From the NCBI RefSeq assembly GCF_004104375.1, contig NZ_QOVM01000002.1:496001-560000 (forward strand): DNA of 64,000 nt. The letters are read 5' to 3'. The position numbers and the translations under genes were made by a program. Numbering within the stretch: position 1 is the first letter of the stretch; each line of letters begins with the position of its first letter. Below, piece by piece: positions 3,990 to 6,287 of this stretch. This DNA is from Leeuwenhoekiella aequorea (GTDB lineage: Bacteria; Bacteroidota; Bacteroidia; Flavobacteriales; Flavobacteriaceae). Below the pieces are notes generated by a model. The model was not told where the DNA came from and did no database searches. It was given only the letters and a program-made list of their open reading frames with translations.

Positions 3990-4044
3990 TTAAAACGATT
4001 AGCCAGTAATCAATTTAAAAATAGAATTGTTTTTGAGAAAATAA

Positions 4045-4368
4045 AAAAAGCAGACCTATAAGCCGGGTTCTGTTCTTATTGCAAGCAATAATACCTTATC
4101 ATTTATCTAGACAAACAATTACTTGTTTGTTCTATCTGCCTACCCTCCGGCATCGCACGAGACGCACTTAATTGCCGGTTTACATGGCATTGCACCGCAT
4201 AGAGTTTACCTGGTTTCACTACAGCATTACCTGTACATACTTTCTGTTGCACTAGTCCTTAAATTAATAATTGCTTATTAATCTAGACGGCCGTTAGCCG
4301 CTATGCTTCCCTATGGTGTCCGGACTTTCCTCCCTATAAAAATAGAGCGATAAGGCGGTCTGCTTTGA
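4045..4368 (-). ncRNA. rnpB: RNase P RNA (bacterial class A)
   Basis: The catalytic RNA of ribonuclease P, which trims tRNA 5' ends. Read on the minus strand, the 5' part contains AGGAAAGTCCGGACACC (complement near 4317-4333) and the 3' part contains ACAGAACCCGGCTTA (near 4058-4072), the two universally conserved core segments. Helix P1 is visible: AAAGCAGACC at 4357-4366 (minus strand) pairs with the complement of 4047-4056. The run of A on the plus strand at 4043-4049 gives a U-rich 3' end. Boundaries are good to a few bases. Confidence 0.95.
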
Positions 4369-4545: not shown

Positions 4546-5637
4546 GTGGAGCAATTCATCGTATCAGCCAGAAAATATAGACCTGCGACCTTTAAGGATG
4601 TTGTGGGGCAACAGGCTATTACAAATACGTTAGAAAATGCAATTGCAAATAATCATCTTGCTCAGGCACTATTATTTACAGGGCCCCGAGGTGTAGGTAA
4701 AACCACGTGCGCGCGTATTCTGGCCAAGAAGATTAATCAGGAAGCAGATGAAGTTGTTGATGAAAATGAAGATTACGCTTTTAACATATTTGAGTTAGAT
4801 GCTGCTTCTAATAATTCGGTAGATGATATACGTAATTTAATTGATCAGGTACGTATAGCTCCGCAAGTAGGTCAATACAAGGTTTATATTATTGATGAGG
4901 TACATATGCTCTCTTCCGCAGCATTTAATGCCTTTCTCAAAACACTAGAAGAGCCGCCTAAACATGCTATCTTCATATTAGCAACAACAGAAAAGCATAA
5001 AATTATTCCTACTATACTCTCAAGATGTCAAATATTTGACTTTAAGAGAATTACAGTTAAGGATATACGTGAGCATCTAGCAGATATTGCAAAACTTGAA
5101 CATATTACTGCAGATGAAGAAGCACTTCATATAATTGCTCAAAAAGCAGATGGTGCCTTAAGAGATGCATTATCAACCTTTGATAGGGTGGTAAGTTTTT
5201 GCGGTAATAATCTTACTCGAGCAGCAGTAACCGAAAATCTAAATGTTCTTGATTACGATACCTATTTTGAGACTACAGATTTAATTTTATCTAATAATAT
5301 TCCGCAGTTGCTTCTCAATTTTAATGAGATTCTTGCAAGAGGCTTTGACGGTCATCACTTTATTGCAGGGCTTGCTTCTCACTATAGAGATTTAATGGTG
5401 TGTAAAAACCCAGCTACAATCGCTTTACTTGAAGTGGGGGATCAAACAAAAAATCGGTATCACGAGCAAGCTGAGAAAGCTGATTTTGATTTCTTGATGC
5501 CTGCACTTGAAAAGGCTAATGAATGTGATTTAAAGTATCGCACAAGTCGTAATCCGCGATTACTAGTTGAAATTTGTCTTATGCAAATGGCCTCTATCAC
5601 TTTTGATGGAGAAAAAAAAAAGCTTCTGACTTTATAA
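4546..5637 (+). CDS. dnaX: DNA polymerase III subunit gamma/tau, zero-frame (short, gamma-like) product
   Basis: The ATPase subunit of the replisome clamp loader. It starts at GTG 4546 with MEQFIVSARKYRP, the usual beginning in flavobacteria. Walker A GPRGVGKTT is near residues 45-53, followed by the Walker B/DExx IIDEVHMLSS, the SRC arginine-finger motif SRCQIFDF, and clamp-loader domains II and III to about residue 355. The Cys cluster that binds zinc in E. coli DnaX is absent. The zero frame ends five codons after a run of ten A (GEKKKLLTL then stop), removing the tau C-terminal region. That region continues uninterrupted in the -1 frame to 6287. A -1 slip would make a protein of about 580 residues, the normal family length. 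Confidence 0.9.
   Translation: MEQFIVSARKYRPATFKDVVGQQAITNTLENAIANNHLAQALLFTGPRGVGKTTCARILAKKINQEADEVVDENEDYAFNIFELDAASNNSVDDIRNLIDQVRIAPQVGQYKVYIIDEVHMLSSAAFNAFLKTLEEPPKHAIFILATTEKHKIIPTILSRCQIFDFKRITVKDIREHLADIAKLEHITADEEALHIIAQKADGALRDALSTFDRVVSFCGNNLTRAAVTENLNVLDYDTYFETTDLILSNNIPQLLLNFNEILARGFDGHHFIAGLASHYRDLMVCKNPATIALLEVGDQTKNRYHEQAEKADFDFLMPALEKANECDLKYRTSRNPRLLVEICLMQMASITFDGEKKKLLTL
5612..5622 (+). other. Slippery run A10 + G in dnaX (candidate -1 frameshift or transcriptional slippage site)
   Basis: Ten A at 5612-5621 followed by G. In the zero frame the codons are GAA AAA AAA AAG, so the heptamer A AAA AAG, the same as the E. coli dnaX shift site, occupies 5616-5622 in the correct phase. 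A -1 shift joins codon AAA 5619-5621 to GCT 5622, and the frame is then open for 221 codons. I see no convincing stem-loop just downstream, so polymerase slippage on A10 is at least as likely as ribosomal shifting. Confidence 0.65.
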
Positions 5638-6287
5638 TTCCAGCTTCTTATTTTAATACCGAAAATAATAATTCTAAAAATGAACCTTCTGCAGAGAAAC
5701 CAGTAGGTTCTTCGGTAGTTTCTTCTACATCTTCAGAAACGATTGCGCATAAAAAAGAAGAAAAAGCAACAAATAAACCTGAATCACAACCTCCTATAAG
5801 TTCACCCACTGTACAAACACCTGTGGGCGGCTATATCTCCAGTCTTTCAGTTAAAGGTTTAAAGCGTAAAAAAGAGATCCTTGAGCGCAAAACAGTAAAA
5901 GAAGTTGATATAAGCCAATTACCGAAAGAGCCATTTACTGAAAATGCATTACTCGCAACCTGGAAGGAATATGTTTCCAAATTGCAAAAAAGAGGAGAGA
6001 AAATTTTAGCTTCGAATTTAGAAACAGATACACCTACCTTAAAAGGCACGGTAATACATTTAGAATTTCCGAATGAAACCATGCGTGTCGAGCTAGAACG
6101 TGCCCAGCATAATTTATTAGAGTTTTTAAAGCGAAAACTTAATAATTATGACATTACTATAGAAATCACAGTTAATGAAGCTGCAGAACGTCGTTACGCT
6201 TATACAACTCGTGAAAAATATGAGAAGCTGAAAGAAAAAAATCCCGATTTAGAAATTTTACGAACCACTTTTGATCTTGATATATAA
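5622..6287 (+). CDS. dnaX: DNA polymerase III tau-specific C-terminal region (-1 frame of dnaX)
   Basis: This frame has no stop from the A run to TAA at 6285-6287. It begins with a low-complexity linker rich in Ser, Thr, Pro, Glu and Lys (about residues 1-65), then a folded domain with LPKEPFTENALLATWKEYV and ending TTFDLDI. In related flavobacteria the same sequence forms the C-terminus of a single continuous gamma/tau protein; by analogy with E. coli tau it would contact the replicative helicase and polymerase. An independent start (GTG 5823) exists but would leave the linker untranslated, so I regard this as the second part of dnaX. The stop overlaps the miaE ATG by one base. Confidence 0.8.
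   Translation, partial: ASDFIIPASYFNTENNNSKNEPSAEKPVGSSVVSSTSSETIAHKKEEKATNKPESQPPISSPTVQTPVGGYISSLSVKGLKRKKEILERKTVKEVDISQLPKEPFTENALLATWKEYVSKLQKRGEKILASNLETDTPTLKGTVIHLEFPNETMRVELERAQHNLLEFLKRKLNNYDITIEITVNEAAERRYAYTTREKYEKLKEKNPDLEILRTTFDLDI

Follow-up and report, generated by a model that had tools for sequence, protein, structure and literature searches.

The dnaX gene of Leeuwenhoekiella aequorea is split into two open reading frames, the second of which lies in the -1 frame, with a run of ten A residues at the junction. Across the family Flavobacteriaceae, codon choice directly upstream of this run favors an RNA hairpin; the hairpin is selected, and its arms covary across the family. 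Judged from the anatomy and conservation of the site, the dnaX mRNAs are probably spread over the reading frames by programmed, hairpin-assisted transcriptional slippage. The following features were located in the 64,000-nucleotide stretch that we analyzed (the window).

4546..5637, + strand: dnaX zero-frame open reading frame with a GTG start and profile matches, predicted to yield the short gamma-like form
5592..5611, + strand: predicted RNA hairpin, 8 bp and perfect, from folding, a synonymous-codon test and covariation
5612..5621, + strand: putative slippery A10 run, followed by G at 5622
5622..6287, + strand: C-terminal part specific to tau, 221 codons read in the -1 frame, with its TAA at 6285-6287
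5627..5629, + strand: TGA closing the frame entered after loss of one A (or gain of two)
5635..5637, + strand: zero-frame stop TAA, which falls within the tau codons TTT ATA ATT

Across the site, the zero frame reads GAA AAA AAA AAG CTT CTG ACT TTA TAA, with the heptamer A AAA AAG in zero-frame phase, and the frame closed by the TGA stops after 2 codons. When the sequence was re-read, an earlier sequence-only reading proved exact in placing ten A's and a G at 5612-5622 with this heptamer in phase, and it was right that the zero frame ends soon after the run. The zero-frame part matches TIGR02397 dnaX_nterm (E 4.4e-117), PRK14971 at profile positions 1-369 (E 3.2e-188) and the Pfam families DNA_pol3_delta2, DNAX_ATPase_lid and DNA_pol3_gamma3. 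The -1 frame had been said to encode the C-terminus of the family, and its translation indeed matches positions 401-613 of the NCBIfam gamma/tau profile PRK14971 (E 2.9e-22); a Pfam search with this tail gave no match. Both halves score below the whole-protein cut-off of PRK14971 (685 bits), as expected of halves. By blastp, the tail aligns with its counterparts in all other family loci where one can be read (178 loci, of which 117 carry it in frame). The short form in the window genome is predicted to end in ...EKKKLLTL, and the tau junction peptide is predicted to be ...EKKKASDFIIPASYF.... With tau in the -1 frame, the polarity is reversed relative to E. coli and Thermus, as had been claimed.

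In the sequence TAATG, the TAA of the tau frame and the start codon of the following gene (ATG, 6287) overlap, so translation of the two may be coupled. The following gene is MiaE-like (95 bits and E 5e-27 with the MiaE hydroxylase model, the cut-off being 320). Just upstream of dnaX and divergent from it, RNase P RNA (RF00010, 203.8 bits) is encoded at 4043-4366 on the minus strand.

The run is rare and is kept in the genus. It is the only run of at least 10 A on either strand of the window, only six G-A10 sites occur in the 3.46-Mb genome, and in shuffled sequence the expected count of the 18-mer GATGGAG-A10-G is 0.00. The closest named relative among the matches listed is Leeuwenhoekiella palythoae, with 93% identity in the best segment. 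All 13 genus genomes searched have exactly A10, preceded in each by the same 20-base hairpin sequence; the polarity is reversed in 10 of them, with a zero frame of 366-400 aa, and tau is in frame in 3 (596-619 aa). Genus members of opposite polarity have an equal run and differ in a few bases after it. The tau tail of the window shares 60-72% identity with those of other reversed members and 53-68% identity, over 128-226 residues, with those of the in-frame members.

These comparisons bear on two readings under which the split would not be a working device. One is an error of sequencing or assembly in a homopolymer whose true length is A11, which would put the gene in frame. Homopolymers are prone to error, and four survey loci with A9 (L055, L065, L068 and L131) each look like an undercall of A10, so that A9 cases in single genomes may be errors. 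For the genus, however, an A11 undercall, which the sequence-only reading had kept as its alternative, is excluded, because the relatives checked for run length all have A10 and the differences in polarity among A10 loci, as between L096 and L093, lie outside the run. We thus consider an error practically ruled out, and the site stands as a conserved event, in keeping with the programmed event proposed in the sequence-only reading. The other reading is that the split marks a decayed gene, tau being dispensable, or that the C-terminal part is made as a separate protein by reinitiation, for which a 154-codon GTG open reading frame beginning at 5823 in the tau frame could be invoked. This is very improbable: the tail is conserved within the genus at the identities given above, the run, the hairpin and the stops are all maintained, and in-frame relatives encode one continuous protein.

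We surveyed the site in 181 loci of Flavobacteriaceae, a selected sample consisting of the window, 12 genus-mates, the best 28 new loci, 20 stretches, the 80 best named loci and 40 further stretches chosen mostly for lower identity. Fifteen of the 20 stretches were chosen for a short-looking zero frame, and two of these 15 are contig ends. Some species are repeated in the sample, which contains 178 distinct upstream 150-mers. Outside the family, 80 loci were hand-picked for spread. Final site calls were taken from tblastn frames. A run of at least 9 A was found at the homologous place in all 181 selected family loci and is exactly A10 in 167; elsewhere upstream in the same genes, the dipeptide KK is encoded by AAAAAA in 72 of 147 cases. 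The base 3' of the run is G in 89 loci, T in 71 and C in 21. Phase variation by replication slippage is not favored, given the constancy of A10, although single assemblies are blind to variation within populations. Among the non-family loci, 66 carry at least 9 consecutive A's and 3 carry A7; the other 11, including the A6 sites L184 and L190, have no run of 7 or no match. With 66 of these 80 loci carrying it, the run is an old feature of the phylum.

The strongest clue to the mechanism is a hairpin immediately 5' of the run, which the sequence-only reading had missed. In the window, it comprises the arm CTCTATCA (5592-5599), the loop CTTT (5600-5603) and the arm TGATGGAG (5604-5611), and the A10 run begins straight after its last base. 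The segment 5590-5612 folds with -9.3 kcal/mol (z -5.39), a value equaled by none of 200 shuffles. When the 30 nt before each of the six G-A10 sites of the genome were folded, dnaX folded best, with -8.1 kcal/mol compared with 0.0 to -3.2 for the other five. The arrangement resembles that of an intrinsic terminator, where a hairpin likewise abuts the tract, but the dnaX site has A where the terminator has U. An antisense terminator was rejected by inspection; on the opposite strand, the T-run comes before the hairpin.

We compared the sequences preceding the run with random synonymous recodings that follow the genes' own codon usage; this null, like those used below for covariation and stops, ignores relatedness. 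For 126 distinct family 28-mers, the mean minimum free energy is -7.19, compared with -3.23 for the recodings (median z -2.15; p<=0.05 in 63%), whereas 504 other windows of the same genes, taken as a control, give a median z of 0.11 with p<=0.05 in 8%. Of the family sites, 77% have a perfect stem of 6 bp or more no farther than 3 nt from the run (null 26%), and the hairpins of some family loci are weak. At A10 sites, the hairpin is somewhat stronger in reversed loci (mean -8.19, 36 distinct) than in in-frame loci (mean -7.13, 79 distinct), in a comparison that ignores relatedness. At 67 distinct non-family sites, the hairpin is near its null (median z -0.48; p<=0.05 in 7%) and the A-run persists. 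The hairpin is therefore mainly a feature of Flavobacteriaceae, and it appears dispensable to the general scheme, because the run outside the family persists without a selected hairpin; a phylum-wide hairpin is unsupported across these 67 sites. Outside the family, p<=0.05 is reached at 2 of 4 sites of a small group assembled by hand (families f2, f3 and f15) and at 2 of 11 sites of f7, so that the hairpin may fade gradually at the family border. In f5, another family of the order, all five loci sampled (L173, L175-L177 and L179) are reversed with A10 or A11, and none has a hairpin beyond its null, so that reversal can evidently exist without the hairpin.

The two arms of the hairpin change together. 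In a fixed register with a 4-base loop, 71% of cells pair over 100 distinct sequences, compared with 39-50% after one arm is displaced by 1 or 2. We further fixed the place of the 5' arm by a protein motif and that of the 3' arm by the run, each independently of pairing, which covers 177 of the 181 loci, three having been missed by the motif finder and one having too short a loop. With the arms anchored in this way, 76 distinct arm pairs were obtained, in which 68.8% of cells pair (shuffle mean 62%). All 8 pairs are present in 103 loci, in 14 different full stems, for example CTCCATTT/AAATGGAG in L032, CTCTGTCC/GGACGGAG in L101 and CTCTATCC/GGATGGAG in four Aquimarina loci. Double changes are seen in 52 cells (shuffles: 25, sd 4), and the covariation score reaches 0.300 (shuffles: 0.193); neither value is reached in any of 500 shuffles. 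Two of the five measures of this test are unremarkable: double changes affect 5 pairs, a count that 235 of 500 shuffles attain, and the 20 extra pair types are at most marginal (38 of 500). Other registers of the hairpin are found at some loci, e.g. L041, L057 and L249.

A further feature of the site that had gone unnoticed is that both non-tau frames are closed early. At 97.7% of 175 distinct family sites, both stop within 8 codons, compared with 22.4% under synonymous recoding; for the 58 sites with the polarity of the window, the figures are 100% and 15%, and for 65 non-family sites they are 81.5% and 27%. For the first isoleucine of the [FYH]II motif, 124 of the 126 family loci with the motif use ATA, which helps to form one of the off-frame stops, while ATA makes up 28% of the Ile codons in the tau region (707/2538). 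Closure of the third frame favors slippage, because a ribosomal -1 shift needs only one frame closed. In Thermus, where slippage is two-way, both off-frames are closed as well (PMC5009743).

While the run is maintained, the polarity of the gene varies. In the family, tau is in frame in 117 loci, needs +1 nt in 59 and needs -1 nt in 3, the remaining 2 being contig ends; as the loci were selected non-randomly, 59 of 181 is not a prevalence. Of the 66 non-family loci with an A-run, 38 are in frame, 24 need +1, 2 need -1 and 2 are uncalled. Among the loci titled Flavobacterium, 26 of the 27 sampled are reversed, the exception being L155. The sequence-only reading had thus recognized a real reversal, but had treated as exceptional what is frequent in both selected samples and was published in 2013 (see below). 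A quick maximum-likelihood tree was calculated from the N-terminal parts of 121 family DnaX proteins, excluding the site; many of its forks are weakly supported. It implies 10 changes of polarity, at least 5 of which are forced by well-supported branches, and without two A9 loci, which are possible miscalls, 8 changes remain among 119 loci that all have A10. Among them, reversal was gained once at the root of the clade of reversed Leeuwenhoekiella (11 rows, 97*), the in-frame state seems to have been regained within Flavobacterium (L155, and L122/L156/L159), and polarity switched within Aquimarina, for example between the sister rows L093 and L096. In the 26 rows inspected, the difference in polarity resides in the bases after the run, except in L145, where an additional base precedes it. 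Since all 119 loci have A10, polarity has been switched by changes outside the run, and repeated switching with run and hairpin kept is what would be expected if the RNA were already present in all three phases. In the same tree, the dnaX genes of metagenome bins titled Sphingobacterium, Rhizobium and Chitinophaga (L115, L132, L156 and L159) group with Flavobacterium, and these titles are probably wrong.

Taken together, the anatomy of the site, its conservation, the codon choice in the hairpin, the covariation, the off-frame stops and the polarity switches suggest the following course of events. When RNA polymerase reaches the end of the ten A's, the RNA-DNA hybrid would consist entirely of rA:dT, and the nascent hairpin would form directly behind it, as a terminator hairpin does relative to the U-tract. 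The weak hybrid could then realign, yielding mRNAs with more or fewer A's. A faithful A10 mRNA would give the short, gamma-like DnaX ending at 5637, one with one extra A (or two fewer) would give full-length tau, and one with one A fewer would run into the stop at 5629 and give a short form again. The lean of the sequence-only reading toward transcriptional slippage is thus retained; its wording of a "-1 shift" reads as ribosomal, and the evidence favors an event at RNA polymerase that adds an A, or loses two. Slippage itself, the hairpin as its driver, its direction and efficiency, and the making of both proteins are all inferred. The direction is where precedents diverge. In the accounts consulted, stem-loop-assisted slippage mostly deletes bases, as in IS630 (PMC5009743) and on T6-T9 runs, where deletions predominate (PMC6260861), and this weighs against the model, because tau here needs +1 (or -2); bacterial RNA polymerase is also reported to slip more readily on T runs than on A runs (PMC6260861). 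In lacZ with 7-11 A, insertions were at least twice as efficient as deletions (PMC6260861). If slippage spreads the mRNAs over the frames, the frame that encodes tau can drift. We tentatively go one step further, to a proposal whose chances we put slightly below even: dnaX of Flavobacteriaceae would be a frame-indifferent gene, in which frequent slippage in effect distributes the mRNA over three phases, selection acts on run and hairpin and on a pair of early stops but has let go of the tau reading frame in the DNA, and this frame drifts repeatedly while both products are kept.

As the main alternative, the ribosome may shift by -1 at A AAA AAG, perhaps with GGAG at 5608-5611 as an internal Shine-Dalgarno (SD) sequence, so that the zero frame would give gamma and a share of the ribosomes would go on to make tau. 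That the shift heptamer of E. coli is in phase in the window speaks against slippage and for this reading; the early stop of the zero frame also fits a ribosomal shift. There are also two order-mates from another family, L184 and L190, with AAAAAAG-TAG followed by strong downstream hairpins (-28.0 and -20.8 kcal/mol), and the -1 frame of L190 continues for 214 codons. By their sequence, both look like reversed ribosomal sites of the E. coli type, a layout that would thus exist in the order and is unlike the A10 type. In the family, in contrast, downstream structure is unselected (176 sites, median z -0.15, p<=0.05 in 10%), and the downstream region of the window has a z of -0.82, in agreement with the earlier statement that no strong stem-loop follows the run. 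The GGAG, itself a piece of the stem, ends 4 nt before the heptamer, compared with about 10 nt in E. coli, and a hairpin ending at that distance would presumably sit within the ribosome. Loci with T or C 3' of the run also retain hairpin and A10, and the third frame is closed as well. Bacteroidia ribosomes fail to recognize SD sequences; the exception is a subpopulation without bS21, which responds to very strong ones (PMC9976891). Among 126 distinct sites, 87 have both an SD-like 4-mer and a stem of at least 6 bp, 10 only the stem, 6 only the SD-like 4-mer and 23 neither; as the two are confounded in 87 sites, an SD role is compatible with the sequence taken alone. On balance, we regard ribosomal frameshifting as unlikely here and transcriptional slippage as the better account.

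A reversed dnaX with ten A's, together with the proposal of slippage, has already been published: Antonov 2013 (PMC3711429) reported 17 two-ORF dnaX genes in 12 genera, of which nine have 10 As, and proposed transcriptional realignment, and the reversed polarity was repeated in a 2016 review (PMC5009743). The dnaX of the window shares with that type the A10 run and a tau that needs a change of frame. In the portions of PMC3711429 available to us, we found no mention of an upstream hairpin at two-ORF dnaX and no description of polarity switching within a family. A literature search of titles and abstract openings, from which subscription papers were mostly absent, returned none on slippage at dnaX of Flavobacteriaceae. 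A covarying upstream hairpin in dnaX and repeated switching of polarity are apparently undescribed in the literature searched.

Other known systems share parts of the arrangement. E. coli dnaX is the same gene with the same heptamer, but its zero frame gives tau and it has a downstream stem-loop and an SD stimulator, whereas no such stem-loop was found here and a role for SD may well be lacking. Thermus thermophilus dnaX has a homopolymeric run, both off-frames closed nearby and two products, which are predicted here (PMC5009743); there, tau is in the zero frame and the run is A9, whereas in the window tau is off-frame and an A10 run has a hairpin abutting it. In the Roseiflexus IS630 element (Penno 2015, via PMC5009743), an inverted repeat is likewise 5'-adjacent to the slippage motif, but the motif is T5C5, one C is lost and the product is a transposase, whereas dnaX is a chromosomal replication gene. 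In IS1447, an A9 run follows a predicted stem-loop and slippage of about 16% occurs in each direction, +1 giving the full protein; IS1447 differs in being a transposable element and in that the predicted stem takes in two of the A's (PMC6211511). Stem-loops were also reported in relatives of IS1447, and we found no covariation test of them in the text of PMC6211511 that was accessible.

If slippage does operate at this site, a chromosomal replication gene would depend on RNA polymerase slippage for its full-length product, with a dedicated nascent-RNA hairpin conserved across a large bacterial family. The site would provide natural covariation evidence for stem-loop-assisted slippage beyond mobile elements, it would explain why dnaX looks frameshifted in genomes of Flavobacterium and Leeuwenhoekiella, and several independent polarity switches would be at hand for comparing the tau:gamma ratio.

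Two of the other G-A10 sites in the window genome also lie near the ends of open reading frames. At L280 (C1 ~397,715-397,725), the run is near the C-terminal end of a 338-codon membrane-protein-like open reading frame and has no abutting hairpin. At L284 (C1 ~775,725-775,735), it is near the end of a long membrane-protein-like open reading frame, whose tail overlaps the start of a glycosyltransferase-like one that is read in a different frame; both were named by eye. The run at L284, too, is abutted by a stem, though a weak one (7 bp, -2.2 kcal/mol), and slippage there could fuse or couple the two open reading frames.
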